Positions 27,733 through 63,970 of a DNA stretch of 64,000 nucleotides are shown piece after piece. This DNA is from Termitidicoccus mucosus. Its GTDB lineage: Bacteria > Verrucomicrobiota > Verrucomicrobiia > Opitutales > Opitutaceae. The notes under the pieces are model-generated. The model made no database searches. It was not told the origin of the DNA and saw only the letters and a list, made by a program, of their open reading frames with translations. A program made the translations under genes and the position numbers. Each line of letters begins with the position of its first letter. The first letter of the stretch is position 1. The stretch is taken from positions 1,116,001 through 1,180,000 of the forward strand of contig NZ_CP109796.1 of the NCBI RefSeq assembly GCF_038725785.1. Direction: 5' to 3'.

Positions 27733-27748
27733 AAAACAGCGAGGAATC

Positions 27749-38861: not shown

Positions 38862-38936
38862 ATGACGGTTCGCCGGACCCGGCGCCCCCGCACCGGGTTC
38901 CGCAAACATTCAATGCAACCCGCAACCCTCGCATTT

Positions 38937-41900: not shown

Positions 41901-42206
41901 CTTCGCCTCAACTGGAACTACCGGGGGCGCCAGAAAACCGACGCGCAGGAGGGCACCGCGTATCAGGACGAGGACTCGCTCGATTTCCAAGGTTACTATG
42001 AATACGTGGCTCCCCGCCTGATGGTGGACATGAACCTGGAATACAAGCTCAACAAACGCATCAACTTCTTCATGAACGCGCGCAACCTCACCAACGAGCG
42101 CTTGGTGCTGGAGCGTTACAACGATCTCTCACCCGACTACGCCAAAACCTATCGGGCAATGGAATACGGAGTCCAGATCACCGCCGGCATAAAAGGCTCG
42201 TTTTAA
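38937..42206 (+). CDS. TonB-dependent outer-membrane receptor
   Basis: The ATG at 38937 begins a signal peptide (MKRNTPPFLARLPAMLALAC, ending LLAQE); an upstream in-frame start at 38862 would hide it. 1089 residues: a carboxypeptidase-regulatory-like beta-sandwich (about 15-105, GVIEGRVSSRADQKYLVNAR, NDYGEYRIAGIPAGEV), a TonB-box-like LLEKFEVVS, the plug (DAFGDVTSGNIGEFLKFMPG, SVRGFGSAYTAVTTDGMSMA), and a large 22-strand barrel ending GVQITAGIKGSF with a terminal Phe. It imports oligosaccharides too big for porins using TonB energy. In this phylum such receptors work without SusD. Its position between the autotransporter and the lyase genes suggests uptake of galacturonan fragments. Confidence 0.93.
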   Translation: MKRNTPPFLARLPAMLALACVLPLALLAQENNTGVIEGRVSSRADQKYLVNARITIDGTHYQDLTNDYGEYRIAGIPAGEVTVTALFSGLNPKSYRITLAPGARVTQDFELSTSEVDSLGSTVLLEKFEVVSTRDTANNIIATNEQRFAQNIKTVIETDAFGDVTSGNIGEFLKFMPGVAVDYDNADPNSVSVRGFGSAYTAVTTDGMSMANAASGSETRTFEFDQTSINNVSRIEVTKVPLPSQRADSLGGQVNLVPKNAFERRKMSFNFRAAAGINSENLDFFRKTPGPQYGNTYKIKPNFDFDLTIPFSKKFGIVLTGMRTEQYNEQHRSQMEWQFNRVPDEFSGSDRSKYANNPTIVELIDSRNLRTDPYLRNYRMQDSPKAQIKNSLGLRADWKIARNHTLSAFYQFGSSEAHTGTRDIQWDMKEYVVYHPTLRPDGTIDPSILRRWGYDEMYGGYYTMSTTGNRAKIKHNSGLNDKYGITNTLNLRYRYTGNNWEFDAALNGSFARSWERDMSNGHFSNSATELVGEVERLLIGGIQKQDAPTVLKGYRIDGTLIDVFDLTNYTVKTVTTNPKDARDEFKTGQFNIKRNLNMFPFYATLKSGGEIREQYREIVQQRAFLEYNPTDGRPNQAIDFLDVPYSTKEQAWGMPHMPTPSPYLLYQAYLEDLQRPEGSRFFTLPPGREKDALESNYRNNGSFNEKVTSFYVQLDAKFFDNRLSIATGFRYEMTEDRGKGSYMPNYKILDPNNPDRYLTDEELEDGDYDAQMVDFIKKNWKFNGVNTYRTYGDIYPSFHANFNITGNMIARFAYSMTLGRPDLKNIMPNNIKYETEIDEEMNEPYTIVKCNNPALKPYEANNYDLSLEYYLQNGGMLSGAVFYKSISGFFGQERVQGTTAMLRQVGAPPGLNNPILIMPINLDDMTTVQGAEVAMRMPLSFIPGIGRYVNVFANATVLDMRANYRANFGGFIEQTANWGINIITPRLVLRLNWNYRGRQKTDAQEGTAYQDEDSLDFQGYYEYVAPRLMVDMNLEYKLNKRINFFMNARNLTNERLVLERYNDLSPDYAKTYRAMEYGVQITAGIKGSF

Positions 42207-42298
42207 CCTGCCCTTATTCGCTGGAAGAACTTTCCCGGCTAAAAATACGCCTGGCCCAGCAATGGCGGCCATAAAACGCGCAAGGTGTAATGCCATTT

Positions 42299-43963
42299 AT
42301 GAAAAGACATCATCCTTCGCCGACCTCAAGAAGCACAGCCTGCGCTGCGTGTCTTGCCGTCGCCATGTTTATTCTGTTTTCATTTCGCGCCAGTGCCGCG
42401 CAGGATGCCGGCTGGGTGCTCAACCCGTCCGACCTCGAAATGTTCATCCTGTCCGCCAAGGACGAGCAGGGCGGGCATAACATCCACCCCACCGCCGACG
42501 GCGGCTGCATCGTCGCCGCCTGCGTTTCCAATCCCGGCAGGGGTCGCGACCTCGGCGTCTATAAATTCACTGCAGGCCTGAAGCCCGATCTGGCCTTCGG
42601 CGACAACGGCCTCTGGACCGCCGGCTCCACCGGCGTGGATCAGGCCATTGATGCCATCGAGGTTATAGGTCCCAATGGCCAGCCCGACGGATACCTCGTC
42701 GCCGGCTATGTTTCCGCAGGAGATGGTGACTTTGCAAATTGTGGCTACCATCCCTCCTCGCCCGATGCGAAACAGGGCACGACCGGCGATATTGTTCTCG
42801 TCCGTCTCACCCGCGATGGAAAACTCGATGCCTCCTTCGGCCACAGCGGCATGCGCTGCTATGGCGGCTCCGACAATGATACCATCATCTACCATCCGTC
42901 GAATTATTCCGAGCCCGGCAACAAACTCCTTCAGACTACGAACGGTTTCCTCCTCGCCGGTATCACGCGCTCCCGCGACGGAGACCTCCAAGACATCAAG
43001 ACCGTCGGTTACACGCGCTCCTACGATACATGGATTTTCAAGGTCGATGCGCGCGGCGAATTTGCCCGCGATTTTGCCGACAAGGGCTCCCTGCGCGTCG
43101 GCACCAAGCCCGGTGAGCACATCGGCAAACGCCCCGCCAACGAATACCCTTGGTCCATCAAAGCCGACCCTGCCGGCGGCTTCATTGCCTCCGGCTACCA
43201 CTTCGGCGCCTGCTTCCCTTATGGCCAAAAGGACGGCGCGCTCATCCCCTCGCCCGGCAACGCCGCCCTCACCACCGCCGCCGAAAACGCCAGCGGCGAT
43301 GTCAACGACGCCAGCATGGACGGCTGGCTTTTCCGCGCCAACGACAAGGGCCGCTTGCGCGATGACTGGGCCGGGCACGGTCTCATCTTCATCGGCGGCA
43401 CCCGCCAGGAAAAAATGTATGACCACATTGTCACGCCCGATGGCGGCTATGTTGTCAGCGGGCGCACCTCCTCCTCCGATCTCGCGTTCACTCGTCCAGG
43501 AGGAAAAGTAGAAAACTTCGGCGCCTTCCTCGTCAAATACGACAAAACCGGTGCGCTCGTTCCCGCCTTCGGCAACAACGGCCACGGCATCTGCTTCCTC
43601 GACTATTGTGGCGACCAAGTCTCCCGTGTCGCCAACTACGACGAGGGGGATATCATTGGAGTCGTAGCCGGCACCAACGCGGCCGCCTCGCAACTCTCGC
43701 TGCCCGTCGGCTACGGCATGCAGTTCGTCGTCGTCCGCCTCGACGCGCAAGGTCGTCCCCTTCGTTACTGGAGCCTTGGGCGCGAGGGCGATGACTGGGC
43801 TTGCGGCATGGACGTGGACTCACGGGGCCGCATCCTCCTCACCGGCTTCAATGACAAGGGACGCCCGACCGGCGAAAAAGCGCCCGCCACTGGCGAGAAA
43901 AAAGGCGTCCATCCCCACCGCGACCTCGTGGTCATGCGTTTCACTCCGCACCTCAAAAATTAA
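42299..43963 (+). CDS. Exported delta-60 repeat protein
   Basis: A 554-residue protein starting at the ATG 42299 (three codons after an alternative start at 42290), with a signal peptide ending FRASAAQD. It carries delta-60-type repeats of about 55-60 residues: a glycine-aspartate-rich strand then a LTRDGKLDASFGHSGM or YDKTGALVPAFGNNGHG block and the GGYVVSGRTSS-type strand. Delta-60 proteins form beta-propeller-like folds of unknown function; some occur in adhesins or with cell-surface enzymes. It sits directly after the TonB receptor and 25 bp before the first tandem PL10 gene, so it may be a surface glycan-binding partner in place of a SusD protein (inference). Confidence 0.75.
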   Translation: MKRHHPSPTSRSTACAACLAVAMFILFSFRASAAQDAGWVLNPSDLEMFILSAKDEQGGHNIHPTADGGCIVAACVSNPGRGRDLGVYKFTAGLKPDLAFGDNGLWTAGSTGVDQAIDAIEVIGPNGQPDGYLVAGYVSAGDGDFANCGYHPSSPDAKQGTTGDIVLVRLTRDGKLDASFGHSGMRCYGGSDNDTIIYHPSNYSEPGNKLLQTTNGFLLAGITRSRDGDLQDIKTVGYTRSYDTWIFKVDARGEFARDFADKGSLRVGTKPGEHIGKRPANEYPWSIKADPAGGFIASGYHFGACFPYGQKDGALIPSPGNAALTTAAENASGDVNDASMDGWLFRANDKGRLRDDWAGHGLIFIGGTRQEKMYDHIVTPDGGYVVSGRTSSSDLAFTRPGGKVENFGAFLVKYDKTGALVPAFGNNGHGICFLDYCGDQVSRVANYDEGDIIGVVAGTNAAASQLSLPVGYGMQFVVVRLDAQGRPLRYWSLGREGDDWACGMDVDSRGRILLTGFNDKGRPTGEKAPATGEKKGVHPHRDLVVMRFTPHLKN

Positions 43964-43988
43964 AAACATGCCGTCAGAAAATCATTTT

Positions 43989-45182
43989 ATGAAGACCTTC
44001 TCACTGACTTCCATCCTTCGATTTTCCGCCATGCCGGTCTTTTTCGTTGCCATCTGCGCCATATTGCTGCGCGCCGACGACGCCCTCCAGCCGATCGACG
44101 TCTCCGCCTTCGTCGATAGCGCCCACCACTGGCGCAATGTTCACGGATCCAGCGATAATCCCCTGAAACCCCGTCCCGGCCACCCGTCGTACAAACCGGA
44201 ACAAGTCCGCGAAATCGCCGCCAACGTCCTCCTTTTCCAGTGCGACAACGGCGGCTGGCCCAAAAACTACGACATGTGCGCCATCCTTAACGACGAGGAA
44301 AAAGCCGCGGTTCTCTCCATTAAAAACCGCAAAACCGTCACTTTCGACAACGAGACCACCCACTCGCAAGTCGCCTACCTCGCCAAGGCTTATGCACAAA
44401 TCAAAGAGCCCGCCTACCGCGACGCCTGCGTGCGCGGCCTCGACTTCATGCTCTCCGCCCAACTCCCCGGCGGCGGCTTTCCGCAGCGCTGGCCGGACCC
44501 CGAGGGTTACCACGCCTATATCACCTTCAACGACCGAGTGATGGTCGGCATCCTCACCGTCCTGCGCGACGCCGGCAACGGCGTCAATGGCTTCGCCTGG
44601 CTCGACACCGCCCGCCGCGAAAAATGCCGCAACGCCCAGGAACGCGGCACTGCCTGCATCCTCGCCTGCCAGTATCGCAATGCCAAGGGAGAACTCGTCG
44701 CCTGGGGCCAGCAGCATGATCCCAAAACCCTCCTTCCCGCCAAGGGCCGCGGCTTCGAGCTCCCCAGCCTCTGCGCACAGGACACCCCTGAGATCATCCG
44801 TTACCTCGCCGGCTTCGAACAACCTGCCCCGGAAATCATCGCCGCCATCCGGGCCGGTGTCGCGTGGTTGGAGCAATCCAAAATCACCGGCATCCGCGTC
44901 GAAGAGTTCAATTCCACCCCGGTCAAGTTCCGCTTTCACGACACCGACATCGACCGCCGCGTCGTCAACGATCCGTCCGCCCCGCCCATCTGGGCGCGCA
45001 TGTATGAAATGGAAACCAACCGCCCCATGTTCTGCGGCCGCGACCAGAAAAAAGTATATGCTTTCGCCGAAGTGGACCGCGACCGCCGTACCGGTTACGA
45101 CTGGTATGGCTACTGGCCCGCCGACGAACTCTCCGGGTTGTATCCCGCCTGGCTGAAAAAACACGGTTTCTCGAAGAAATAA
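43989..45182 (+). CDS. Pectate lyase PL10, tandem copy 1
   Basis: 397 residues from ATG 43989, which starts the signal peptide MKTFSLTSILRFSAMPVFFV; a start at 43968 is also possible and a far upstream frame start at 43776 overlaps the previous gene and is not real. PL10 blocks: CDNGGWPKNYDM, TFDNETTHSQVAYLAKAY, YITFNDRVM, VAWGQQHDPKTLLPAKGRGF with the catalytic-base arginine, and the C-terminal APPIWARMYEMETN and DRDRRTGYDWYGYWP. Cuts polygalacturonate by beta-elimination. First of seven head-to-tail paralogues. Confidence 0.95.
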   Translation: MKTFSLTSILRFSAMPVFFVAICAILLRADDALQPIDVSAFVDSAHHWRNVHGSSDNPLKPRPGHPSYKPEQVREIAANVLLFQCDNGGWPKNYDMCAILNDEEKAAVLSIKNRKTVTFDNETTHSQVAYLAKAYAQIKEPAYRDACVRGLDFMLSAQLPGGGFPQRWPDPEGYHAYITFNDRVMVGILTVLRDAGNGVNGFAWLDTARREKCRNAQERGTACILACQYRNAKGELVAWGQQHDPKTLLPAKGRGFELPSLCAQDTPEIIRYLAGFEQPAPEIIAAIRAGVAWLEQSKITGIRVEEFNSTPVKFRFHDTDIDRRVVNDPSAPPIWARMYEMETNRPMFCGRDQKKVYAFAEVDRDRRTGYDWYGYWPADELSGLYPAWLKKHGFSKK

Positions 45183-45332
45183 TATAACATTTTCAATACC
45201 CCGCCGTCTTCATTTCCGTCTGTACATAATCCAAGGACACGAAGCCGCCATGAATATATGCCCCGCTTTTTTGCGCATCTCGCGGCCATAAAAAATAATT
45301 CTATATAATCCAGTATCCATACGCTTGATATT

Positions 45333-46529
45333 ATGAAAAAGAACTCGTCCATCCCCGGTCTGATCGTATCCGTCGCCGTCGCCGCAGCCGTCACCTTCGC
45401 TGGCTGCTCCAAGTCGAGGAAACCCGAGCCCATCGGCGTTGATGCCTTTTGGGATGCCGCCCACCACTGGCGCGATGTCGGTGGCCCCGGCAAAATTGTG
45501 ATGCCCCGCCCCGACCATCCCTCCTACAAGCCGGAACAGGTGCGCGAAATCGTCGCCAACATTCTTCTCTACCAGCGCGACGGCGGCGGCTGGCCGAAAA
45601 ACTACGACATGCTCGCCATCCTCACCGACGAGGAAAAGGCCGCCGTAGCCGCCACCCGCGACCGCGCCGATGCCACCTTCGACAACGAAACCACGCACCC
45701 GCAGGTCGCCTACCTCGCCAAGGCTTATAACCAGCTCAAGGATCCCGCCTGCCGCGATGCCTGCCTGCGCGGCCTCGATTATATGATTGCCGCGCAAAAT
45801 CCCAGCGGCGGCTGGCCTCAGTTTTATCCCAATGCCAAGGGCTACTTCGCTCAGATCACCTTCAACGACCGCGTCACCACCGGCCTCCTCGCCGTCCTGC
45901 GCGATGCCGCCAATCGCGCCAACGGTTTCCAGTGGCTCGACGACGAGCATGCCGCCAAGGCCCGCGCCTCCGTCAAGCGCGGAGAGGACTGCATCCTCGC
46001 CTGTCAGTTCACCGCCAACGACGGCACGCTTCGCGCATGGGGCCAGCAGCACGACGAAAAAACCCTCAAGCCCGCCAAGGGTCGCGCCTACGAACTCCCC
46101 AGCCTCTGCTCGCAGGACACCGCCGAGATTTGCACCTATCTCATGCGCATCGAAAACCCAGCTCCCGGAATCATACGTTCCATCCAGGCCGGCATAAAGT
46201 GGCTCGACGACGCCAAGATCGAGGGCCTCCGCTACGAGGAGTTCGAATCGACTCCCGCCGAGTTTTCCCGCCATAAGACCAGCCTGGACCGCCGTGTCGT
46301 CCCCGATCCCACCGCGCCCGTCATCTGGGCCCGGATGTATGATCTGGATACAAACCTGCCCACCTTCTGTGGCCGCAACGGCGTGAAGGTGAAAACCTTC
46401 GCTGAGGTCGACCGCGACCGCCGCACCGGCTACAACTGGTATGGTTTCTGGCCCGCCGACGTCCTCGCCAAGGATTATCCCGCCTGGCTGAAAAAGAACA
46501 ATCAGAAGGACATTCGTATCGGGAAATAA
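45333..46529 (+). CDS. Pectate lyase PL10, tandem copy 2, lipoprotein
   Basis: 398 residues. Its N-terminus is a hydrophobic leader followed by VTFAGCSKS, a lipobox-like site, so unlike its neighbours it is probably anchored in a membrane by a lipidated cysteine. PL10 blocks are complete: RDGGGWPKNYDM, TFDNETTHPQVAYLAKAY, QITFNDRVT, RAWGQQHDEKTLKPAKGRAY with the arginine, and NWYGFWPADVLAKDYPAWLK. 150 bp after copy 1, the largest gap in the array, with an AT-rich stretch that could hold an internal promoter. The closest relative in the array by eye is copy 1. Confidence 0.95.
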   Translation: MKKNSSIPGLIVSVAVAAAVTFAGCSKSRKPEPIGVDAFWDAAHHWRDVGGPGKIVMPRPDHPSYKPEQVREIVANILLYQRDGGGWPKNYDMLAILTDEEKAAVAATRDRADATFDNETTHPQVAYLAKAYNQLKDPACRDACLRGLDYMIAAQNPSGGWPQFYPNAKGYFAQITFNDRVTTGLLAVLRDAANRANGFQWLDDEHAAKARASVKRGEDCILACQFTANDGTLRAWGQQHDEKTLKPAKGRAYELPSLCSQDTAEICTYLMRIENPAPGIIRSIQAGIKWLDDAKIEGLRYEEFESTPAEFSRHKTSLDRRVVPDPTAPVIWARMYDLDTNLPTFCGRNGVKVKTFAEVDRDRRTGYNWYGFWPADVLAKDYPAWLKKNNQKDIRIGK

Positions 46530-46659
46530 AACAATCAACCTCATTCCGTATTCATATCGCTCCTTCCGATTTTCCCCCGAATGGGCTAAGGAAAGAATAA
46601 GGAGGCGTAAGAAAACGGAAACGATGGCAGATTTCTTCATTCTCAATATTCACAATGAT

Positions 46660-47829
46660 ATGAAAATTTTTCACATCCTCCTCGCCGTCCTCGCACTCGC
46701 CGATGCCGGTCTTTCCGCCGCGACCGAGGCCGGCATCGAGCCCATCGACATCTCCGGCTTCCGCGACAGTTCGAACCACTGGCGCAACATCAGAAACGAC
46801 GGCTATTTCATCCAGGCCACTTCGAAGGACCAGCCTCATTACGACAAAAAACAGGTGCGCGAAATCGCCGCCAACATCCTCCTTTTCCAGCGTGCCAATG
46901 GCGGCTGGCCCAAGGACTACGACATGTGCGCCGTCCTGACCCGCGACCAAGCCGAGAAAGTCGCCGCCACGCGCAACAAAACCGACACCTCCTTCGACAA
47001 CCACGGCACGCATCCGCAGATTGCCTATCTCGCAAAAGTATATGAAGCCACGAGGGAGGATGCTTATCGCAAGGCCTGTGAGCGCGGCATCGACTTCATC
47101 CTCTCAGCCCAATATAAAAACGGCGGCATCCCGCAGCGTTATCCAGGCAAGAACGCCATCGGCGTCCTCGTCACGCTCAATGACGGCGTCATGGGCGGCG
47201 TGCTCGGTGTGTATCGCGACGCCGCGCGCGGCCAAGACGGATTTTCATGGCTCGACAACAAGCGTCGCGAAAAATGCCGCGCCGCCTTCGACAAAGGTGT
47301 CGCCTGTCTCCTCGCCATGCAAAACCGCAACAAGCAGGGCGTGTTGCAAGGCTGGGGCCAGCAATATAACCAGAACACGCTCAAGCCCGCCCTCGGACGC
47401 CCCTTCGAGCACCCCTGCAACGCACCTGGCGAGACCTGCGATGTCCTTGACATCCTTATGCGCATCGAAAAACCCTCGCCTGAGATCGTTGCCGCCGTAA
47501 AAAGTGCCGTCGCCTGGCTCGACAAGGTCAAACTCACCGGCATTCGCGTAGAAAAAGTCGCAGCCGAGGAAAATGTTTCCAACCGCAAAACCTCCAAGAC
47601 CGACACCATCGTCGTGCAAGATCCGTCCGCCACCGAGCCGCTCTGGGGGCGCATGTATGAGCTCGAGACTGACCGCGTGCTCTATTCCGATCGCTCCGGT
47701 GCCATCAAGTATTCGCTCGCCGAAATCGACCGCGAACGCCGCTCCGGCTCCAACTGGTTCGTCACCGGACCCCATAAGATCATCGAGCGCGCGTATCCCG
47801 CGTGGATGGAAAAAAATAATATTAAATAA
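46660..47829 (+). CDS. Pectate lyase-like PL10, tandem copy 3, altered WGQQ motif
   Basis: 389 residues from ATG 46660 (signal peptide to about LSAATEAG); an earlier frame start at 46624 is less likely. It keeps RANGGWPKDYDM, SFDNHGTHPQIAYLAKVY and the arginine in KPALGRPFEHP, but the block that is WGQQHDPKT in most copies reads WGQQYNQNT, and ITFND reads VTLND. The region after it (APGETCDVLDILMRIEK) also differs. These changes are near the substrate cleft in PL10 lyases, so specificity or activity may differ. Only 13 bp separate it from copy 4. Confidence 0.9.
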   Translation: MKIFHILLAVLALADAGLSAATEAGIEPIDISGFRDSSNHWRNIRNDGYFIQATSKDQPHYDKKQVREIAANILLFQRANGGWPKDYDMCAVLTRDQAEKVAATRNKTDTSFDNHGTHPQIAYLAKVYEATREDAYRKACERGIDFILSAQYKNGGIPQRYPGKNAIGVLVTLNDGVMGGVLGVYRDAARGQDGFSWLDNKRREKCRAAFDKGVACLLAMQNRNKQGVLQGWGQQYNQNTLKPALGRPFEHPCNAPGETCDVLDILMRIEKPSPEIVAAVKSAVAWLDKVKLTGIRVEKVAAEENVSNRKTSKTDTIVVQDPSATEPLWGRMYELETDRVLYSDRSGAIKYSLAEIDRERRSGSNWFVTGPHKIIERAYPAWMEKNNIK

Positions 47830-47842
47830 TAAAACACGCGTC

Positions 47843-49003
47843 ATGCTCCAGCGTTCCATATTATTATTCTTCATTTATTATTCTGCATTATGCATTAGCG
47901 GCATCGTCCGTGCCGCCGCCATCGATATCTCCGGTTTCAAGGACAGCGCCTCGCACTGGCGCCATATCAACGAGCCCGAGCGCGTCATGCAGCCCGTCCC
48001 CGACCAGCCGTCCTATAAGCCTGAGCAGGTCCGCGAGATTTGCGCCAACATCCTCCTTTTCCAGCGCTCCAACGGCGGCTGGCCCAAGGATTATGACATG
48101 TGCGCCATTCTCAACGACAACCAGATACAAGCCCTCCGCGACTCGCATAAACGCAACGACACCACCTTTGACAATCACGCCACCCATACCCAGGTCGCCT
48201 ACCTCGCCAATGCCTACCGCCAGCTCAAGGAGGAATCGTGGCGCGATGCCTGCCTGCGCGGCCTCGCCTTCATTTTCGATGCACAATATCCCAATGGCGG
48301 ATTCCCGCAGCGTCATCCCAACCACAAGGGCATCGCCGGTCTCATCACTTTCAACGACGGCGTCATGGTTGGCATCATGAACCTGCTCGGAGACATCGCT
48401 CACAAACGCAACGGCTTCGAGTGGATTGACGACACCACCGCGAAAAAAGCCCGCGCCGCCTCCGACCGGGGGCTCGCCTGCATTCTCGCCATGCAATATA
48501 AAGACAAGCAGGGCGTCCTTCAGGGGTGGGGCCAGCAACACGACCCGAAAACCCTCCTGCCTGCGCAGGCACGCACCTTCGAGTTCGCCTGCCTCAGTCC
48601 GCAGGATACCTGCAAAATTCTCACCTATCTCATGGGAATCGAACGTCCCGGCGACGCTGTCACTCGCGCGATTCAATCCGCCGTTGCATGGCTCGATACC
48701 ACGAAACTAACCGGCATCCGTGTCGAAAACTTCAAGGCTGGCTACATCGAATTCAATCGCCATAAAACCGGCTCCGATCGCCGTGTCGTCGAAGATCCGT
48801 CCGCCCTGCCGCTCTGGGCGCGCATGGTTGAGCTGGAGACCAATCGTCCCATTTTCGCTAGTCGGGACGGCGTGCGAAAATACAGCCTCGACGAAATCGA
48901 CCGCGAGCGCCGCACCGGCTACGGCTGGTATGGCTCCTGGCCGCTCGCGATTCTCGAAAAACAATATCCCGTCTGGCTCAAGAAAAATAACCTCTCCGAA
49001 TGA
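47843..49003 (+). CDS. Pectate lyase PL10, tandem copy 4, heptanucleotide-repeat leader
   Basis: 386 residues from ATG 47843; the frame is open upstream to 47573 but overlaps copy 3, so the start beginning the signal peptide MLQRSILLFFIYYSALCISG is used. The leader codons 47859-47900 are built of 7-base units (ATTCTTC, ATTTATT, ATTCTGC, ATTATGC, ATTAGCG). PL10 blocks: SNGGWPKDYDM, TFDNHATHTQVAYLANAY, LITFNDGVM, QGWGQQHDPKTLLPAQARTF with the arginine. Its TGA overlaps an upstream possible start of copy 5 (ATGA at 49000). Confidence 0.95.
   Translation: MLQRSILLFFIYYSALCISGIVRAAAIDISGFKDSASHWRHINEPERVMQPVPDQPSYKPEQVREICANILLFQRSNGGWPKDYDMCAILNDNQIQALRDSHKRNDTTFDNHATHTQVAYLANAYRQLKEESWRDACLRGLAFIFDAQYPNGGFPQRHPNHKGIAGLITFNDGVMVGIMNLLGDIAHKRNGFEWIDDTTAKKARAASDRGLACILAMQYKDKQGVLQGWGQQHDPKTLLPAQARTFEFACLSPQDTCKILTYLMGIERPGDAVTRAIQSAVAWLDTTKLTGIRVENFKAGYIEFNRHKTGSDRRVVEDPSALPLWARMVELETNRPIFASRDGVRKYSLDEIDRERRTGYGWYGSWPLAILEKQYPVWLKKNNLSE
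47859..47900 (+). repeat. Heptanucleotide repeats in the leader of PL10 copy 4
   Basis: Six imperfect 7-base units in register: TATTATT, ATTCTTC, ATTTATT, ATTCTGC, ATTATGC, ATTAGCG. Inside signal-peptide codons; gain or loss of one unit would shift the frame. Confidence 0.6.
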
Positions 49004-49023
49004 ATCATTTGTTTTTTAGTCAC

Positions 49024-50763
49024 ATGAAAAAAACAATTCTCGTCACCCTCGCCTTTTCCATCTTCCTGCTCGTCGCCCGCGCCGCCGACACCCCCGTCAC
49101 CATCGACCTCAGCGGCTTCGCTGACAGCGCGCAGCATTGGTATGATTATAAAAACCCACGTCGGGTGATGGAGTGCGTGCCCGGTCAGAAACAATACGCC
49201 CCGACCCTAATCAGTGACATCGCCGACAATATTCTCCTCTTCCAGCGTGCCAACGGAGGTTGGCCTAAAAACTACGACATGCAGGCCATTCTCACGCCGG
49301 AGCAACGCAAGGCTGTCATCGAGTCGCACGACCACAACGATACCACGCTCGACAACCGCACCACGCACACGCAGATCGTCTATCTCGCCAAAGCCTATGA
49401 ACGCCTCGGTCTTCCCTCCTACCGATATGCCTGTCTGCGCGGTTTTGACTTCATCCTCGACGCACAGCTCGACTGCGGTGGTTTTCCGCAAATCTGGCCG
49501 GATCCCGATGGTTATCACGCCTTCATCACCTACAACGACGGTGTCACCATCGGATTATTCGGTCTCCTGCGCGACATGGCCGAAGGCCGCAATGGTTTTT
49601 CATGGATGGACAATACTCGCCGCGAACAGGCCCGCGCCGCGCTCGACCGCGGCATCACCTGCCTGCTCAGTACGCAATACACAAACAAGCAGGGAGTCCT
49701 CCAAGGTTGGGGCCAACAACACGACCCGAAAGACATGCAGCCTGCCCTCGCCCGCAAATACGAGCTTCCCTCACTCTGCGGACAGGATACCGCCGAGATC
49801 GCGGCCTTTCTCATGGAGGTCGAAAACCCATCCGCCGAAATCATCCGCTCCGTGAAGGCCGCCGTGGCCTGGCTCGACGCGGTCAAAATCACCGGCAAAA
49901 AACTCATCACCCACGACGCATCCGGCACGAAAGTCGCCGACCGCACCGTCGTCGCTGACCTGGCCGCGCCGCCCATGTGGGCGCGCCTCTACGAACTCGA
50001 AACCAACCACCCCATCTTCGCCGGACGTGACGGTGTAAAACACTACGATATCGCTGAAATCGACCACAACCGCCGCAATGGCTACGATTGGTATGGGCAC
50101 TGGGCGCTGGATGTCCTTGCGAAACAATATCACGCCTGGCTCGAAAAAATCTCCGCCGCCACCACGTCTGACGATTTTCGTCACGACCTGGGCAAATGGG
50201 CCGTCGAGCAGATGCCCGGCGGCACTGTCACCGCCGCCGATGGCGTGCTCACCATCACCGACACCAAAGGTTGCACTGTGTGGTTCCGTCAGAAACTCAC
50301 CGCTCCGCTCACCATCCGCTATGATGCCACCATGGACTCCGATGCCCGCGTCTCCGACCTCAACTGTTTCTGGATGGCCTCCGACCCCGGGAACCCCGCC
50401 GATCTCTTCCATTCCGCGCACCAGCGCAACGGAAAATTCTCCACCTATGACAGCCTCCTCACCTACTACGTAGGCTACGGTGGCAACAATAACACCACCA
50501 CCCGCTTTCGCCGCTACGACGGCACCGGAGACCGCCCGCTCCTCCCTGAGCACGAATTCACCGATCCCGCGCACCTTCTCCAACCCGACCGCACCTACGC
50601 CATCACGATCACCGTGGCCGCCGACGGCACCACCACATACATCCGCGACGGCGAGACCATCTTCGCCTACCGCGATCCACAGCCGCTTGCCGAGGGCTGG
50701 TTCGGTTTTCGTACGGTAAAATCCAAAATTAAAATTGAAAATTTTCGCGTCACCAAAAACTGA
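49024..50763 (+). CDS. Pectate lyase PL10, tandem copy 5, with C-terminal DUF6250-like domain
   Basis: 579 residues from ATG 49024 (MKKTILVTLAFSIFLLVARA); the ATG at 49000 overlapping the previous stop is an alternative. Residues about 25-375 are a PL10 lyase (RANGGWPKNYDM, TLDNRTTHTQIVYLAKAY, FITYNDGVT, QGWGQQHDPKDMQPALARKY). Residues about 385-579 are an added beta-sandwich that resembles DUF6250-type domains: TVWFRQKLTAPLTIRYDATM, NCFWMASDPGNPADLF, YYVGYGGNNNTTTRFRRYDG and a final AYRDPQPLAEGWFGFRTVKS. Such domains are probably carbohydrate-binding or assist pectin enzymes. The only copy with an extra domain. Confidence 0.92.
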   Translation: MKKTILVTLAFSIFLLVARAADTPVTIDLSGFADSAQHWYDYKNPRRVMECVPGQKQYAPTLISDIADNILLFQRANGGWPKNYDMQAILTPEQRKAVIESHDHNDTTLDNRTTHTQIVYLAKAYERLGLPSYRYACLRGFDFILDAQLDCGGFPQIWPDPDGYHAFITYNDGVTIGLFGLLRDMAEGRNGFSWMDNTRREQARAALDRGITCLLSTQYTNKQGVLQGWGQQHDPKDMQPALARKYELPSLCGQDTAEIAAFLMEVENPSAEIIRSVKAAVAWLDAVKITGKKLITHDASGTKVADRTVVADLAAPPMWARLYELETNHPIFAGRDGVKHYDIAEIDHNRRNGYDWYGHWALDVLAKQYHAWLEKISAATTSDDFRHDLGKWAVEQMPGGTVTAADGVLTITDTKGCTVWFRQKLTAPLTIRYDATMDSDARVSDLNCFWMASDPGNPADLFHSAHQRNGKFSTYDSLLTYYVGYGGNNNTTTRFRRYDGTGDRPLLPEHEFTDPAHLLQPDRTYAITITVAADGTTTYIRDGETIFAYRDPQPLAEGWFGFRTVKSKIKIENFRVTKN

Positions 50764-50811
50764 GCAGACCTGCTCGGCGCCCCTTTCTTCTCGCAATCAC
50801 ACCTACTCGCC

Positions 50812-51993
50812 ATGAATCCCCGCTGTCTTTTAACGATATTCTGCATTTTTTATTCCGCGTTCCCAGGTAGCGGCCAAGCTGCACCGGGTGCGCCCTCCAT
50901 CGATACCAGCGACTTCCATGACAGTGCGCAGCATTGGTATAATGTAAATACCGATAGTGCCGACCGCGTCATCCGTGCCCTGCCCGACCAGCCGAAATAT
51001 AAAGATACCCAGATCCGCGAAATCGCCGACAACGTCCTCCTCTTCCAGCGGGACAACGGTGCCTGGCCTAAAAACTACGACATGCAGGCCATTCTCACGC
51101 CGGAGCAGCGCAAGGCCGTCATCGCCACCCGCTCTGCCGTGGACACCACCATCGACAATCACAACACCCATTCGCAAATTGTTTATCTTGCCAGGGCCTA
51201 CGGTATTCTTGGCGACGAAAAATACCGTGTTGCCTGCGAGCGGGGTTTTGATTTCATCCTCACTGCGCAACTGCCCTGCGGCGGCTTTCCGCAAATCTGG
51301 CCCAACCCGAAGGGATTCCACGCCTTCATCACCTACAACGACGGCGTCACCATCGGCATGTTGAAAATGTTGCGCGACTGCGCCGACGCCCGTGCCGGCT
51401 TCGAATGGTTTTCTCCCGAACGCCGGGAGAAGGCGCGCGCTGCCGTGGCCAAAGGCGTCGAATGCCTGCTCGCCACGCAATATGCAAACAAGCAGGGCAT
51501 CCTCCAAGGTTGGGGCCAGCAACACGATCCGAAGGATATGAAACCTGCCAAGGCTCGCAAATACGAACTTCCCAGCCTCTGCTCCGTGGACACCGCCGAG
51601 ATTATACAATACCTCATGGGATTTGATAACCCCGACGCCCGTATCATCCGTGCCGTGCAGGCCGGTGCCGCGTGGCTCGACAAGGTGAAAATTACGGACG
51701 TCAAGGTCGAGAATTTCAAGACCACTGACTCGAAAACAGGTAAGCCGGTCACCGACAAACGCGAGGTGCCCTCCCCCGGAGCCGGTCCGTTGTGGACACG
51801 TTTCTACGAACTCGAAACCGACCACCCCATGTATGCCACCCTCAAAAGCGAAGTTGTATATACTTTCGCCGAGGTCGATCAGGAACGCCGCCGCGGCTAC
51901 GCTTGGCATTCCCAAAAACCCGCCGGCATCCTCGCCAAATCCTATCCCCAATGGTTGAAAAGGAATAATGTAAAAACTAATATTTCAAAATAA
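50812..51993 (+). CDS. Pectate lyase PL10, tandem copy 6
   Basis: 393 residues, signal peptide MNPRCLLTIFCIFYSAFPGS with leader codons 50838-50865 in 7-base units (ATTCTGC, ATTTTTT, ATTCCGC, GTTCCCA). Very close to copy 5 in its lyase part: RDNGAWPKNYDM, the shared MQAILTPEQRKAVI, TIDNHNTHSQIVYLARAY, FITYNDGVT, QGWGQQHDPKDMKPAKARKY. Differs at the end: the usual WYGYWP is WHSQKP and VVNDPSAPPIWAR is replaced by PSPGAGPLWTR. Signals a fairly recent duplication of copy 5 or 6 without the C-terminal extension. Confidence 0.94.
   Translation: MNPRCLLTIFCIFYSAFPGSGQAAPGAPSIDTSDFHDSAQHWYNVNTDSADRVIRALPDQPKYKDTQIREIADNVLLFQRDNGAWPKNYDMQAILTPEQRKAVIATRSAVDTTIDNHNTHSQIVYLARAYGILGDEKYRVACERGFDFILTAQLPCGGFPQIWPNPKGFHAFITYNDGVTIGMLKMLRDCADARAGFEWFSPERREKARAAVAKGVECLLATQYANKQGILQGWGQQHDPKDMKPAKARKYELPSLCSVDTAEIIQYLMGFDNPDARIIRAVQAGAAWLDKVKITDVKVENFKTTDSKTGKPVTDKREVPSPGAGPLWTRFYELETDHPMYATLKSEVVYTFAEVDQERRRGYAWHSQKPAGILAKSYPQWLKRNNVKTNISK
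50838..50865 (+). repeat. Heptanucleotide repeats in the leader of PL10 copy 6
   Basis: Four imperfect 7-base units: ATTCTGC, ATTTTTT, ATTCCGC, GTTCCCA, within the signal-peptide codons. Confidence 0.55.
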
Positions 51994-52063
51994 TCACGGC
52001 ATGGGCCCCCCTCCGATGCCTCTCTGCACAGCATCCGAAAGACAATCATCTCTTCGCTTTCAC

Positions 52064-53233
52064 ATGCACCGTTCAATTAAATTCGCCTTGTCATTCTGCG
52101 TTCTGCATTCCTCATTCTGCATTAGCCTCAGCGTCCGCGCTGCCGACATCATCGATGTCTCGAACTTCGAGGACAGCGCCCAGCATTTCCGCGAAGTCAT
52201 CCAGCCTGAGCGCGCTATCCAGATGCTCTCCGACCAGAAACATTATTCTTCGGAGCAAATCCGTGAGATCGCCGGCAACATTCTCGTCTATCAACATGCC
52301 AATGGCGGCTGGCCGAAGGACTACGACATGCTGGCTATCCTTACGCCCGAACAACGCGCCGCCGTCCTTGCCCGTCGCGACAGCAAGTCCAGCACCTTCG
52401 ACAATAACTCCACACACACACAGGTCACCTATCTCGCCAAGGCCTACTGCCTCACAGGTGACACCGCCCTCCGTAATGCCTGTCTGCGCGGAATTTGCTA
52501 TATCCTCAGCGCGCAATATCCGATCGGCGGCTGGCCCCAAAGCTGGCCCGACCCCAAAGGCTATGCTCCGCGCCTCACGCTTAATGACGGCGTGATGGTG
52601 GGAAACCTTCGCGTCCTCCGCCACATTGTAGACCGCACCGGCGGCTTCCTCTGGGTTGACGACGCTCTCCGCGAGCAAGCCCGCAAAGCCTATGAAAAAG
52701 GAGAGGGTTGCCTGCTCGACGCTCAAATACGTACGTCTGACGGCAGGCTCACCGGCTGGGCGCAGCAATACCACGAACACACCCTCAAACCCGCGCAAGC
52801 CCGCAAATTCGAGTATCCAGGCACCAGTGGCGAAGACACACCGGAGGTCATGCAATACCTAATGGAAATCGAGAACCCCAGCCCGCGAATCATCGTCGCC
52901 GTGCGTGCCGCCGCCGCTTGGCTCGATGCAGCCAAAATCACCGGCATTCGTATCGAGGAGTTCAAAATTCCCTATTACGAGACCGTCCGCCACAAGGGTG
53001 ACTTCGACCGTCGCGTCGTCAACGATCCCGCCGCCCCCGCGATCTGGGCTCGCATCTACGACATCAACACCGGCAACCCCGTCTTCGCCAACCGCGATGG
53101 CTCGCGCAAGGACTCCCTTGCCGAACTCGAACTCGACCGCCGCGTCGGTTATCATTGGTATGGCTACTGGCCCGCCAATGTGATGGAAAAGGAATATCCC
53201 GCATGGCTCAAAAAACACGGTCTCACCCCCTGA
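52064..53233 (+). CDS. Pectate lyase-like PL10, tandem copy 7, altered WGQQ motif
   Basis: 389 residues from ATG 52064 (MHRSIKFALSFCVLHSSFCI); an open frame reaches back to 52001 but that start lies before the leader. The leader codons 52093-52127 are five 7-base units (ATTCTGC, GTTCTGC, ATTCCTC, ATTCTGC, ATTAGCC). It keeps HANGGWPKDYDM, TFDNNSTHTQVTYLAKAY and the arginine in KPAQARKFEYP, but has WAQQYHEHT for WGQQHDPKT and LTLND for ITFND, like copy 3. Last lyase of the array, 30 bp before the leucine-rich-repeat gene. Confidence 0.92.
   Translation: MHRSIKFALSFCVLHSSFCISLSVRAADIIDVSNFEDSAQHFREVIQPERAIQMLSDQKHYSSEQIREIAGNILVYQHANGGWPKDYDMLAILTPEQRAAVLARRDSKSSTFDNNSTHTQVTYLAKAYCLTGDTALRNACLRGICYILSAQYPIGGWPQSWPDPKGYAPRLTLNDGVMVGNLRVLRHIVDRTGGFLWVDDALREQARKAYEKGEGCLLDAQIRTSDGRLTGWAQQYHEHTLKPAQARKFEYPGTSGEDTPEVMQYLMEIENPSPRIIVAVRAAAAWLDAAKITGIRIEEFKIPYYETVRHKGDFDRRVVNDPAAPAIWARIYDINTGNPVFANRDGSRKDSLAELELDRRVGYHWYGYWPANVMEKEYPAWLKKHGLTP
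52093..52127 (+). repeat. Heptanucleotide repeats in the leader of PL10 copy 7
   Basis: Five 7-base units, two identical: ATTCTGC, GTTCTGC, ATTCCTC, ATTCTGC, ATTAGCC, within the signal-peptide codons. Confidence 0.7.
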
Positions 53234-53263
53234 TCTCTTCCATAACCGCAGCTGTATATAACC

Positions 53264-54208
53264 ATGCGATTCTGTTCAAAAAGTTTCTTGTGCGTCCTGC
53301 TCATGCTCTACGCCATCAGCGCGTCCGTCATTGCGCGCACCGTGTCGTTGGCTGATTATGCCAGAGCGGGCCAACCTCTAAAAATATACACCGTCCCGCA
53401 AAAATTCGATGCGTCGGGTATTCCTCTTTTGAAATCCGACCAGATAAATAATTTCAAGGAGGGCGACCACGTGCTGCCGCTCTCCGATAAAAAGTTGACC
53501 GATCTGAAAGGCATCAGCACGCTCAAGGTGGAGTTCGGCGGGAAAATCGTCCCCATTATCACCGTCCCGCGGCTCCAACTTTTTTTCAATAAAAACGATC
53601 TCCACGATATTCCCGCGGAAATCGGACGGCTGGAGAATGTCATCTTCATATATTTCAAGGAAAACAAACTGACTCATATCCCGCCCGCCATCGCCGGAAT
53701 GAAATCACTCCAAGGAATGTATTTTACCGATAATAAAATCACTGAAATTCCGCCCGAGGTGTTCACCCTTGCCGGGCTCCGTAAACTCGAAATCGCCGGA
53801 AACCAGCTTTCCGTGCTCCCCCGGGAAGTCGGCAATCTCACCAAGTTGATTCATTTCCGCCTGGACAAGAACAAGCTCACCTCTCTGCCCGATTCTATCA
53901 GCAATCTGAAAGAACTGCGTGTGGTTGATTTTTCCGACAACGACCTTGCTGAGATTCCGCAGGCTTTCGCCGAGGTTTCGATTCGTTATGAACTGCGTCT
54001 TCGCGGCAACAAAAAACTTCGTACCCTGCCTTATGGGAAAGGGTTCGCCTCAATGACCGCCGCCATCGATATCAAGGACACCGGCATCGATCCCGCCTCT
54101 CTCCCGCCGGAAATCCGTGCCCGCACCGAGGCCACGCGTCCGCCGGGTGCCTATGCCAAGGCTCTGGCTGAGCGCGGCGAAACGAAGAAAACGGCAAGAG
54201 ATAAATAA
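53264..54208 (+). CDS. Exported leucine-rich-repeat protein
   Basis: 314 residues with a signal peptide (1 to about 24, ending SVIART). A first globular part (25-100, ending KLTDLKGISTLKVEFG) is followed by about seven leucine-rich repeats of 23 residues with the bacterial/plant-type consensus LxxLxxLxxLxLxxNxLxxIPxxI: NDLHDIPAEIGRLENV, NKITEIPPEVFTLAGLRKLE, NQLSVLPREVGNLTKL, NKLTSLPDSISNLKELRVVD. The basic, lysine-rich tail is probably unstructured. Such proteins bind proteins; nothing enzymatic is seen. It may be a surface or periplasmic binding factor; eukaryote-like repeats also occur in host-associated verrucomicrobia. Confidence 0.8.
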   Translation: MRFCSKSFLCVLLMLYAISASVIARTVSLADYARAGQPLKIYTVPQKFDASGIPLLKSDQINNFKEGDHVLPLSDKKLTDLKGISTLKVEFGGKIVPIITVPRLQLFFNKNDLHDIPAEIGRLENVIFIYFKENKLTHIPPAIAGMKSLQGMYFTDNKITEIPPEVFTLAGLRKLEIAGNQLSVLPREVGNLTKLIHFRLDKNKLTSLPDSISNLKELRVVDFSDNDLAEIPQAFAEVSIRYELRLRGNKKLRTLPYGKGFASMTAAIDIKDTGIDPASLPPEIRARTEATRPPGAYAKALAERGETKKTARDK

Positions 54209-54259
54209 CATATTGCTCGCCGATTCTTCAACCAGACCAACCGCCACATCTCCATAATC

Positions 54260-55600
54260 ATGACAAAATCCAGACTCCTCTTCGGCGTCTTTTCCGGCAT
54301 CCTCGCATCGACCATCGCCTCGACGGCACTCTACGCCCAGGCCAACATCGGCGCCGGCGAAGGCCATGAGGAGGCCACCACACCCGCCGGACGCCGCACG
54401 CCCGACCCTGGCGTCACCGTGAGGCAGCTTACCGGCGGTCCGCGCAATCACTATTTCGGCTACATCGGCCAGTGCCGCACCATCCCATGGAACGATACCG
54501 GTCGCTACATCCTCTGCCTCGAGACACTCATCCAGGACCGTCTTCCCGAGGCCGGCGACCCCGCCGGTGTCTGCCTTTATGACACCACCACCGGCCAACT
54601 GCGCGTCGTTGACCAAACTCGCGGCTGGAATCCGCAGCAGGGCACGATGTTTTATTGGAATCCCGAGCATCCCGAGACGCAGTTTTTTTTCAACGATCGC
54701 GATGTGAAGACCGGCAAAATCTTCACCGTGCTCTATGACATCACCGCCGGGCTCGACGGCAAAGGAGGCCGCATCCGCGAATACTGTTTCGACGGCTGTC
54801 CCGTGGCCAATGGAGGCGTCGCACAAAATGGCCGATACTTTTTCGCCATCAACTACGCCCGTATGGCCCGCCTGCGCCCCGTCACCGGTTATAAGGGCGC
54901 GACCGACTGGACGGACGGCGTCGCCGCGCCTGAGGACGACGGCATCCATCGTGTCGATATCAACACCGGCGAACGCAAGCTCATCGTTTCCTTCGCCCGA
55001 CTCCGCGAGGCCATCCGCCCCATGGACCCGAAGCGCATCGACACGCGTCACCTCTTTATCAACCACACCTTGGCCAACCGCAACAACGACCTCATCTACT
55101 TCTTCTGTCGCGCTGACTTCGAGACCGAGCCGCAGACGCGAATCAACGTTCCCTTCACCGTGCGTCAGGACGGCACGGGCCTTACCGCGCACAGCATTTT
55201 CATCGGCGGTCATCCCGACTGGGATTCCGGCGCATACATGATCGGTTCGAACAGCGACAAACAGGTCATCTACGACACTGCCACGAAGAAAATCATCGGT
55301 GACCTCGGCGGCAACGAACTCTACACTGACACCGAAGGCGACATATCCGTCTCGCCCAACGGCCGCTGGTTCGTCAACGGCGACCGCATTGGAAAATATA
55401 ATTATTATATATTCCTCGACCGCAAGACCGGCCGCACTCTCAAGTCCCCCGGCGTTTACATGGCCGACTGGACCATCAAATGGGGCGCGCTCCGTCTTGA
55501 CCCCGCACCCGCGTGGAATCGCGAGAGCAACGCCATTGTCGTCCCCGGTATCGCAGGGGACGACACCCGACAGATGTTCATGATTTCCCTGCCCGACTAA
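54260..55600 (+). CDS. Oligogalacturonate-lyase-like beta-propeller protein (PL22-like), copy 1
   Basis: 446 residues, signal peptide 1 to about 29 (ALYAQAN). The rest is a seven-blade-type propeller typical of oligogalacturonide lyases: RQLTGGPRNHYFGYIGQC, GWNPQQGTMFYWNPEHPETQ, VNRHLFINHTL-like RHLFINHTLANRNNDLIYFF and IFIGGHPDWDSGAYM with histidines that in PL22 bind manganese and sit in the cleft. PL22 enzymes cut unsaturated or saturated digalacturonate to monomers. Exported here, whereas classical PL22 is cytoplasmic, so the exact substrate may differ. Followed 79 bp later by a paralogue with stretches of near-identical DNA. Confidence 0.8.
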   Translation: MTKSRLLFGVFSGILASTIASTALYAQANIGAGEGHEEATTPAGRRTPDPGVTVRQLTGGPRNHYFGYIGQCRTIPWNDTGRYILCLETLIQDRLPEAGDPAGVCLYDTTTGQLRVVDQTRGWNPQQGTMFYWNPEHPETQFFFNDRDVKTGKIFTVLYDITAGLDGKGGRIREYCFDGCPVANGGVAQNGRYFFAINYARMARLRPVTGYKGATDWTDGVAAPEDDGIHRVDINTGERKLIVSFARLREAIRPMDPKRIDTRHLFINHTLANRNNDLIYFFCRADFETEPQTRINVPFTVRQDGTGLTAHSIFIGGHPDWDSGAYMIGSNSDKQVIYDTATKKIIGDLGGNELYTDTEGDISVSPNGRWFVNGDRIGKYNYYIFLDRKTGRTLKSPGVYMADWTIKWGALRLDPAPAWNRESNAIVVPGIAGDDTRQMFMISLPD

Positions 55601-55679
55601 ACCTGATATTTTATGTAATATTTGGAAACAATCCCCGACAAGATCGATCTCTCCGAGGCCACCACAACCATGTATCAGC

Positions 55680-56993
55680 ATGAAGCATTTCTCATTATAC
55701 ACACTCATCTTCTCTGCGTTTTTTTCCCTCGCCTCCCACGCGCAGGGCATCTCCAGCAAACCGCTCAAAGACGCCGCCCTGCGCTCAGCAGATCCCGGCG
55801 TGGCGGTCCGCCAGATAACCCAAGGGCCCGCCAATCACTATTTCGGCTACATCGGCCAGTGCCGCACCATCCCATGGAACGATACCGGTCGCTACATCCT
55901 CTGCCTCGAAACACAATTCCAGGACCGCCTCCCCGACGCCGGTGATGCCGCCGGTGTTTGCCTCATCGATACGCGCGACTATAGTATTCGAGTTCTAGAT
56001 GCCACTCGCGGCTGGAATCCGCAGCAGGGCACGATGTTTTATTGGAATCCCGAGCATCCCGAGACGCAGTTTTTTTTTAACGACCGCGATGTGAAGACCG
56101 GCAAAATCTTCACCGTGCTCTATGACATCACCGCCGGGCCCGACGGCAAAGGCGGCCGCATCCGCGAATACCGTTTCGACCACTGCGCCGTGGCCAACGG
56201 CGGCATCGCGCAAAACGGTGGCTACTTCCTCGCCATCAACTACGCCCGCATGGCCCGCCTGCGCCCCGTCACCGGCTATAACGGCGCGCACGACTGGACG
56301 GACGGCGTCGCCGCACCCGAGGATGATGGCATTTACCGCGTCGATATCGAGACCGGCGGACGCAGGCTTCTCGTTTCCTTTGCCCAGCTCCGCGAAAAAC
56401 TCCGCCCGCTCGACCCGGAGCGCATCGACTCGCGCCACCTGTTCATCAACCACACCCTCAACAACCGCAACAATGACCTTGTCTATTTTTACTGCCGCGC
56501 CGATTTCGAAACTGAGAAACCCGGTTCGCGCATCAATGCCCCCTTCTCCATGCGTCCCGACGGTAGCGAGCTCATGTTGCATGAAACCTACATCGGAGGC
56601 CATCCCGACTGGGACATGGACGGCTGCATGATTGGCGCCATCAAGGACAGCCTCATCCGCTATGACGTGCGCGCTCGCAAGGTCGTCGCCGAACTCGGCG
56701 GACCCGGGCTGTTCATTTCACCTGGCGGCGACACCGCAGTCTCGCCTGACGGACGCTGGCTTGTGAACGGTTCGCGCATCAGTGAATACAATCATTATAT
56801 GTTCCTGGATCGCAAAACCGGCCGCAGCTTCAAGTCCCCCGGCATCTGGCTTTCCGTGTGGTCCACCGGCAAGGCCGGTGCGCTCCGCCTCGACGCTTCG
56901 CCCGCATGGAATCGCGAGGGCAATGCAGTCGTCGTTCCCGGCATAGCGGAGGACGGCACCCGCCAGATGTTTCTCATCAGCCTGCCGGACTGA
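55680..56993 (+). CDS. Oligogalacturonate-lyase-like beta-propeller protein (PL22-like), copy 2
   Basis: 437 residues, signal peptide MKHFSLYTLIFSAFFSLASH (ending AQG). Same propeller and motifs as copy 1: QITQGPANHYFGYIGQC, GWNPQQGTMFYWNPEHPETQ, RHLFINHTLNNRNNDLVYFY, IGGHPDWDMDGCMIG. DNA of the two genes is almost identical over about 78 bp (from 54447 and 55833) and about 140 bp (from 54619 and 56003) but clearly diverged elsewhere, including the signal peptide and C-terminus. A run of nine T (56070-56078) lies in the QFFFND codons; copy 1 has eight. Same probable role on oligogalacturonides. Confidence 0.8.
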   Translation: MKHFSLYTLIFSAFFSLASHAQGISSKPLKDAALRSADPGVAVRQITQGPANHYFGYIGQCRTIPWNDTGRYILCLETQFQDRLPDAGDAAGVCLIDTRDYSIRVLDATRGWNPQQGTMFYWNPEHPETQFFFNDRDVKTGKIFTVLYDITAGPDGKGGRIREYRFDHCAVANGGIAQNGGYFLAINYARMARLRPVTGYNGAHDWTDGVAAPEDDGIYRVDIETGGRRLLVSFAQLREKLRPLDPERIDSRHLFINHTLNNRNNDLVYFYCRADFETEKPGSRINAPFSMRPDGSELMLHETYIGGHPDWDMDGCMIGAIKDSLIRYDVRARKVVAELGGPGLFISPGGDTAVSPDGRWLVNGSRISEYNHYMFLDRKTGRSFKSPGIWLSVWSTGKAGALRLDASPAWNREGNAVVVPGIAEDGTRQMFLISLPD

Positions 56994-57031
56994 TTCATAT
57001 TATATAATCAGACACAATCACCTTTCCCATC

Positions 57032-58438: not shown

Positions 58439-58524
58439 CGCCAAAACGGGCGCATCATTCCCGTCAAGCAGGGGCTTTGCAAGCGGAGCCCTTGCTTGGC
58501 GCTTCATCTTGTTATTTCCGCCCC

Positions 58525-61023: not shown

Positions 61024-61038
61024 GCCGGCGTCTCGCAT

Positions 61039-62454: not shown

Positions 62455-62464
62455 CATCACCATC

Positions 62465-63883: not shown

Positions 63884-63970
63884 TAACACCACAGGTTTCC
63901 CATGGATAGAATTTCGCCGGATTTCTATTATCTAGAACCAAAATCATAATGATTTGAGCAATCCTCACTC

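Follow-up and report, generated by a model that had tools for sequence, protein, structure and literature searches.

The genome of Termitidicoccus mucosus (Verrucomicrobiota, Opitutaceae) carries seven genes of polysaccharide lyase family 10 (PL10; profiles PF09492 (Pec_lyase) and TIGR02474) in one tandem array. The account that best explains them, and that we regard as fairly probable, is an old tandem family lying in a pectin island of ~77 kb that has moved between genera. The array occupies positions 43989–53233 (+) of the window, the 64,000-nucleotide stretch analysed here, which corresponds to C1:1116001–1180000 of the source genome (G000; 7.92 Mb, 2 contigs); coordinates are window positions unless C1 is given. 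The island and its apparent movement are not visible from the window alone, and emerged from genome comparison.

The PL10 array and its counterpart in Ereboglobus

The seven genes are intact and, as a preliminary description of the window had stated, lie head to tail. In profile searches, all eight PL10 proteins of the window score above the PF09492 cut-off (E 1.8e-73 to 1.7e-88) and pass the TIGR02474 cut-off, with 289–292 of the 292 profile positions covered and no internal stops in any copy. The eighth gene, described as lying about 27 kb away, is found at 16086–17258, 26.7 kb from the array, while a ninth PL10 gene of the genome lies outside the window, at C1:2347651–2348544, 1.18 Mb away. 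Gene starts in the array were chosen by comparison with orthologous DNA; for copies 3, 5 and 7 the starts at 46660, 49024 and 52064 are preferred to those at 46624, 49000 and 52001, which probably extend the genes too far upstream. With the orthologue-supported starts, the intergenic gaps across the array are 150, 130, 13, 20, 48 and 70 bp, and the list of open reading frames (ORFs) contains only overlapping shadow frames between the seven genes and no plausible additional gene, confirming the description in both respects. Around the array, the numbers of promoter-like sites (8, against a chance mean of 4.9, standard deviation 2.4) and terminator-like sites (15, against 14.3, standard deviation 4.4) are within chance.

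The same seven PL10 genes are present in the same order in a metagenome-assembled genome (MAG), 'Ereboglobus sp. isolate Reactor_metabat.82' (JARKRC010000063.1; G921), with an eighth ~26 kb off, the two loci (L010 and L011) being on one contig. None of the eight PL10 matches found in the MAG is a counterpart of the ninth copy. The main nearby difference is a GH2 gene of ~3 kb, present in the MAG but not in the window, between copy 7 and the leucine-rich-repeat gene.

The eight window paralogues share 43–64% amino-acid identity, and the number of synonymous substitutions per synonymous site (dS, by NG86) is at least 0.7 in 27 of their 28 pairs, pair 6/8 having no computable dS. The eight orthologue pairs between window and MAG, in contrast, are 91–95% identical over the mature part, with dS of 0.16–0.34, and their ratios of non-synonymous to synonymous change (dN/dS) are 0.09–0.18 by NG86 and 0.07–0.22 by YN00. 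In a tree of 56 rows, which include a choice of 27 from the 37 near-clade rows that are not of Ereboglobus, every copy pairs with its own orthologue at 100/100; copies 5 and 6 group at 100/99 and copies 3 and 8 at 97/91, and the ninth copy joins copies 1 and 2 at 99/99, these two pairing with each other at 92/65. Among 307 segments of 90 nt, none is closer to a paralogue than to the orthologue, giving no sign of gene conversion. As judged from these comparisons, the array did not arise recently, has not been homogenised and has had every one of its copies maintained, because the paralogues are old, the orthologues correspond one to one and gene conversion leaves no signal. Moreover, since copies 5 and 6, and probably copies 1 and 2, are neighbouring sisters, the array may have grown by tandem duplication in an Opitutaceae ancestor.

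The preliminary description had itself named two ways in which the array might mislead, as an assembly artefact or as one very recent clade of copies. An artefact is ruled out by the identical seven-gene order in an independent assembly of another genus, and the window, furthermore, sits within a contig of 7.8 Mb. Recent amplification is ruled out by the low paralogue identity and by the separate orthologue of each copy, which place the divergence far back. We therefore assign these two explanations, taken together, a negligible probability. Decay of the copies is likewise ruled out, by the dN/dS values of 0.09–0.18.

To place the array in context, we surveyed whole genomes with PF09492 in samples that overlap. 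In the large surveys only the best candidates of each genome were scored (6 for the own phylum, 5 for the phyla of G433 and G424, and 9 for the own family), so that copy counts per genome are lower bounds; the source genome is included in the tallies of 38 relatives, own phylum and own family, and the MAG also in the family tally. A match was found in 14 of 38 genomes (the source genome and relatives), 58 of 387 genomes of the own phylum, 137 of 252 genomes of the own family (Opitutaceae), 54 of 395 genomes of the phylum of G433 (L041, a Bacteroidota; 53 over the cut-off) and 105 of 392 genomes of the phylum of G424 (L031, a Planctomycetota; 97 over the cut-off). The family survey gave nine matches for the source genome, eight for the MAG, at least seven for one genome and at least six for three, many of these being partial. 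Beyond the source genome and the MAG, and among the matches listed, no genome has more than four full-length copies (G877, with at least five matches in the family survey), and the longest tandem comprises two genes (L038, L045, L062 and G877:C69).

A set of 79 PL10 loci, taken with up to 10 kb on each side, gives the same picture. The MAG locus L010 holds seven copies and five others have two ORF hits: L038, L045 and L062 are tandem pairs, the hits in L086 lie ~5 kb apart, and the double hit in L056 looks like one gene split between frames. One locus comparison took 50 of the 77 non-Ereboglobus loci. These results are consistent with the earlier statement that most loci hold one or two members of the family. 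Among near relatives, where PL10 alone was sought, PF09492 matches neither G001 nor G002, the remaining two members of the window's genus, nor G004, of the MAG's genus, and has a single match in G920, also of the MAG's genus. No larger PL10 tandem array was seen across these samples, and the novelty of this one is of degree and combination. A literature search returned no paper on tandem gene duplication of PL10 pectate lyases.

Copy-specific domains and active-site residues

The catalytic module is homologous to that of the reference PL10 enzymes, Cellvibrio Pel10A (1gxm/1gxo), Azospirillum PelA (1r76) and Paenibacillus PpPel10a, and has the same catalytic residues; copy 1 matches 1r76 with E 8e-48 and 1gxm with E 1e-36. 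Active-site residues were read from the copies aligned to the Cellvibrio and Azospirillum enzymes and are numbered as in Cellvibrio Pel10A. No change is seen at D389, N390, D451, R524, E527 or R596 in any of the eight copies, in the eight orthologues or in the ninth copy. The roles of D451, R524 and E535 are described in PMC10992409, and the residue set D138, N139, R273, E276, R355 and R370, given for PpPel10a in PMC6278402, would by our own mapping correspond to D389, N390, R524, E527, R596 and R610. On the features tested, the window enzymes are thus, as far as their alignment can tell, ordinary PL10 members. What sets them apart from the references is the presence of seven tandem paralogues, one with a DUF6250 domain; PpPel10a, by comparison, is the only PL10 found in its genome, as stated in PMC6278402.

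Three positions vary among the copies. H513 is replaced by Tyr in copies 3 and 7. Position 535 is Asp in six copies (1, 2, 4, 5, 6 and 7), whereas copy 3 has Glu and copy 8 has Asn; Asp is found there in four of six PL10 proteins from outside the lineage, so the E535D change is ordinary. R610 is kept in seven of the eight copies and replaced by Leu in copy 6 and by Val in the ninth copy. The named residue states of copies 3, 6, 7 and 8 are identical in the respective orthologues. The difference in active site that had been attributed to copies 3 and 7 thus holds in the form of H513Y, while copy 6, which had not been singled out, lacks Arg610.

Two further differences lie outside the active site, and both had been anticipated. 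Copy 2, which was thought to differ in lipidation, has a lipobox-like FAGC motif, read by eye, that is also present in its MAG orthologue. The added domain of copy 5 is DUF6250 (residues 419–582, counted from the ATG at 49000), found on no other of the eight copies and, among the collected PL10 loci, only on copy 5 and its orthologue, although the two-sequence profile used makes this a weak test. The predicted structure of this domain is a weak model (mean predicted local distance difference test score 57.5), and its best structural matches, of low confidence, are lectin-like domains and CBM66, with a beta-sandwich fold. A sugar-binding role is accordingly only a guess.

The shared island and competing explanations

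The array and copy 8 are contained in an island, G000:C1:1132091–1208703 (window 16091 to 92703), that aligns with G921:C4:227508–305569, although the group codes of the genome search assign G000 (g1) and G921 (g3) to different genera. Eight alignments, picked as at least 1 kb and above 85% and leaving out paralogue matches, cover 74.9 kb of the 76.6-kb block with a mean nucleotide identity of 92.3% (88.4–94.2%). Outside the island, comparing 0.92 Mb of one genome with 0.78 Mb of the other gives 40 alignments that reach or exceed 500 bp; they cover 68 kb with a mean identity of 78.4% and a maximum, per whole alignment, of 87.9%. For the rpoB region, identity is 88.6% between the two genomes, as against 94.0% and 91.8% between the source genome and its two genus mates.

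Synonymous divergence gives the same contrast. The median dS of 43 island genes is 0.21 (0.10–0.38), as compared with 0.49 for rpoB and a median of 1.03 for 58 outside reciprocal best pairs; for the 29 outside pairs with at least 70% amino-acid identity the median is 0.72 (Mann–Whitney p 3e-11 versus the island). These figures leave out overlapping ORFs and those with dN of at least 0.6 dS, and a dS of 3 was assigned to pairs for which none could be computed. Because the island is so much less diverged than the outside DNA, it probably passed between the lineages of the two genomes after their genera had split, horizontal transfer being the best explanation. Base composition carries no signal of the direction of transfer: the island has 58.5% G+C and its flanks 61%, and 20-kb chunks of the same genome outside the island range over 57–71%.

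The left end of the island coincides with the last codons of copy 8, and the right end lies just beyond a sulfatase gene. In the MAG, one end has a tRNA-Ser 0.7 kb beyond it. In the source genome, an inverted repeat of 309 bp and 81% identity (C1:1125191–1125490, window 9191–9490, and C1:1209774–1210082) sits 6.6 kb outside the left end and 1.1 kb outside the right end. Beside the right end there is also a gene for a CAP12/TIR effector-type protein (L189:8891–9733 (-), equal to G000:C1:1208891–1209733; PF10137, 3.9e-38), a kind of protein known from anti-phage defence.

Several observations weigh against a single old expansion followed by transfer. The branch of the 56-row tree that keeps all 17 sequences together has support of only 68/77, and a single origin of the expansion requires two changes in a quick tree of 112 rows, from which eight loci repeating window genes, all hits below 225 bits and the split gene of L056 had been dropped. 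Two of the 58 outside pairs have dS within the island range. One of the two, a TonB-receptor gene, shows 93.7% identity with the MAG across 3.6 kb and forms part of a longer alignment of 86.2%, hinting that exchange or similarity between the two genomes extends beyond the island. A Pfam scan of 15 flank proteins detected no integrase or transposase, and the island ends in the MAG share no repeat of at least 15 bp (longest shared word 14 bp). A homologous stretch is present no more than 25 kb from the island in both genomes, with the orientation reversed, which could reflect an old shared location followed by an inversion for which the inverted repeat of the source genome could have served. The same neighbourhood and repeat, the latter slightly, raise the alternative that the island was present in the common ancestor of the two genera, was lost in relatives and evolved unusually slowly, and PL10 is indeed common in Opitutaceae. 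However, dS is little affected by protein constraint and is nevertheless far lower in the island than in rpoB or elsewhere, and the three near relatives G001, G002 and G004 have no PL10 match, a point weakened by the completeness of G001 and G002, only 72% and 68%. On balance, we consider such vertical descent quite unlikely, and transfer after the split of the genera the better account.

On the side of function, the most direct challenge is that the seven enzymes perform the same reaction on the same substrate and that the array only raises lyase output. The known catalytic residues, kept in all eight copies, and the co-directional genes with short gaps, for which co-transcription is predicted, speak for such a dosage effect. 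An array kept for dosage alone would, however, be expected to stay more alike than these paralogues, which are widely diverged with no gene conversion seen; H513Y and R610L are common to orthologues, and one copy is lipobox-like and another carries DUF6250. Dosage alone thus seems to us rather doubtful. Division of labour among the copies fits the copy-specific residues and the DUF6250 domain, common to orthologues under purifying selection, but is not proven by them. The preliminary proposal of division of labour rather than dosage alone is therefore partly supported: it fits the copy-specific features, which the orthologues keep, and is not favoured by the core catalytic residues, which all eight copies keep. 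The characterised PL10 enzymes vary in endo versus exo action, according to PMC6278402, which makes paralogues with differing modes plausible. A more radical departure, in which copy 6, and perhaps copies 3 and 7, would be pectin-binding proteins or lyases of a modified uronan, is suggested by R610L and H513Y and by the downstream sulfatase-family genes, which hint at modified substrates; with Arg524 and Asp389/Asn390/Asp451 retained in every copy, we regard it as unlikely.

Gene neighbourhood and significance

A TonB-receptor gene precedes the array, which forms part of an extended series of genes on one strand with little space between them (Table 1). Upstream, the gaps from the PATR-repeat gene through the receptor and delta-60-repeat genes to copy 1 are 0, 83 and 25 bp. 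Downstream, with gaps of 10–79 bp, follow genes for a leucine-rich-repeat protein, two related proteins, a GH88 protein, an FGE-sulfatase/BNR protein, a sulfatase and a GH28 protein. The two related proteins (54260–55600 and 55680–56993) are 95–97% identical to their MAG orthologues; neither has a Pfam match, and the protein at 54260 also has no solved structural relative. They are, at a guess, propeller-type enzymes of oligogalacturonide breakdown. Farther out to the left are a GH2 galactosidase and a PL11-like lyase, and past the window lie a second FGE/BNR protein, a LacI-type regulator, a sodium-solute symporter, a GH28 protein and a sulfatase.

Genome-wide, GH28 has 17 matches (one in the window) and pectinesterase has two; PL1 has six weaker ones, of which five fall in frames of more than 1300 residues. 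At C1 ~104–109 kb, PL1-like and pectinesterase matches occur in a frame of equal length, 4057 residues, and so probably belong to one very large multidomain pectinase. Elsewhere in the window, an enolase-like gene (12901–14300) runs across several frames, with the Enolase_N and Enolase_C parts in separate ORFs, and is either a decaying copy or the product of indel errors in the assembly.

Table 1. Positions of the PL10 genes, the shared island and other genes discussed in the text.
Feature	Position	Strand	Evidence or remark
PL10 copy 1, 397 aa	43989..45182	+	PF09492 1e-84; orthologue R1 in L010 (MAG locus)
PL10 copy 2, 398 aa, lipobox-like FAGC	45333..46529	+	PF09492 1.7e-88
PL10 copy 3, H513Y	46660..47829	+	PF09492 1.8e-73
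PL10 copy 4	47843..49003 (ATG 47843; GTG 47840 alternative)	+	PF09492 7.1e-84
PL10 copy 5 with C-terminal DUF6250	49024..50763	+	PF09492 1e-87; PF19763 2.5e-64
PL10 copy 6, Arg610 to Leu	50812..51993	+	PF09492 3.4e-84
PL10 copy 7, H513Y	52064..53233	+	PF09492 1.4e-79
PL10 copy 8, left end of shared island	16086..17258	-	PF09492 1.1e-84; MAG homology stops at ~16091
Shared pectin island, part in window	16091..64000		By homology continues to ~92703 (G000:C1:1208703)
Rhamnogalacturonan lyase PL11-like protein	22236..24362	+	PF21348 1.4e-12
PATR-repeat protein, 2305 aa	31944..38861	+	PF12951 4.5e-16
TonB-dependent receptor, 1114 aa	38862..42206	+	PF00593/PF07715; TIGR01782 over cut-off
Delta-60-repeat protein	42290..43963	+	TIGR02608 2.1e-15, below its cut-off
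GH88-family protein (unsaturated uronyl hydrolase type)	57032..58438	+	PF07470 1.6e-85
GH28 polygalacturonase-like protein	62465..63883	+	PF00295 1e-25
GH2 gene of the MAG, missing in window	L144:16467-19496	-	PF02836 1.7e-46
TonB-receptor gene outside island	L237:1597-5229 = G000:C1:5941597-5945229	-	Pfam; 93.7% to MAG

From these genes a pathway can be proposed. The PL10 enzymes would be exported, one perhaps as a lipoprotein, and are predicted to cut homogalacturonan by Ca-dependent, arginine-based beta-elimination. The copies may differ in their preference for chain length or methylation pattern, in mode of action and in attachment. The resulting fragments would be taken up through the TonB receptor and finished by enzymes of the GH88 and GH28 types. 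A tentative extension, which goes well beyond transfer of the island as such, is that the island is a self-contained, transferable pectin unit in which lipoprotein-like, lectin-like-domain and altered-site copies split the processing of homogalacturonan and are inherited as a block.

Horizontally transferred polysaccharide utilisation loci are known from Bacteroidota. Like these, the island is a whole glycan-utilisation locus shared between genera with an identity above that of core genes; unlike these, it belongs to Verrucomicrobiota (Opitutaceae), spans ~77 kb, is directed at pectin, contains a lyase array and has no mobile element among the 15 flank proteins. A literature search found no report of transfer of a ~77-kb pectin locus between Opitutaceae genera. 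Some Dickeya pel genes are also arranged in tandem clusters, but Dickeya Pel enzymes are mainly of other PL families and in smaller clusters, whereas here the enzymes are PL10, with seven in one run. Dickeya nevertheless provides a likeness, many pectate lyase paralogues in one organism: PelA, B, C, D, E, I, L, N, W, X and Z are named in PMC6127512. What is new is the size of the array together with its probable joint transfer.

The array is well suited to testing why bacteria retain numerous versions of a single carbohydrate enzyme, with seven old paralogues, an order fixed across two genera and residue changes that point to particular copies. It also documents a pectin locus of ~77 kb that has apparently been transferred in its entirety between genera of Opitutaceae. 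If the tentative reading as a self-contained unit is true, division of labour would have come under selection, and been inherited, as one block and not one gene at a time.

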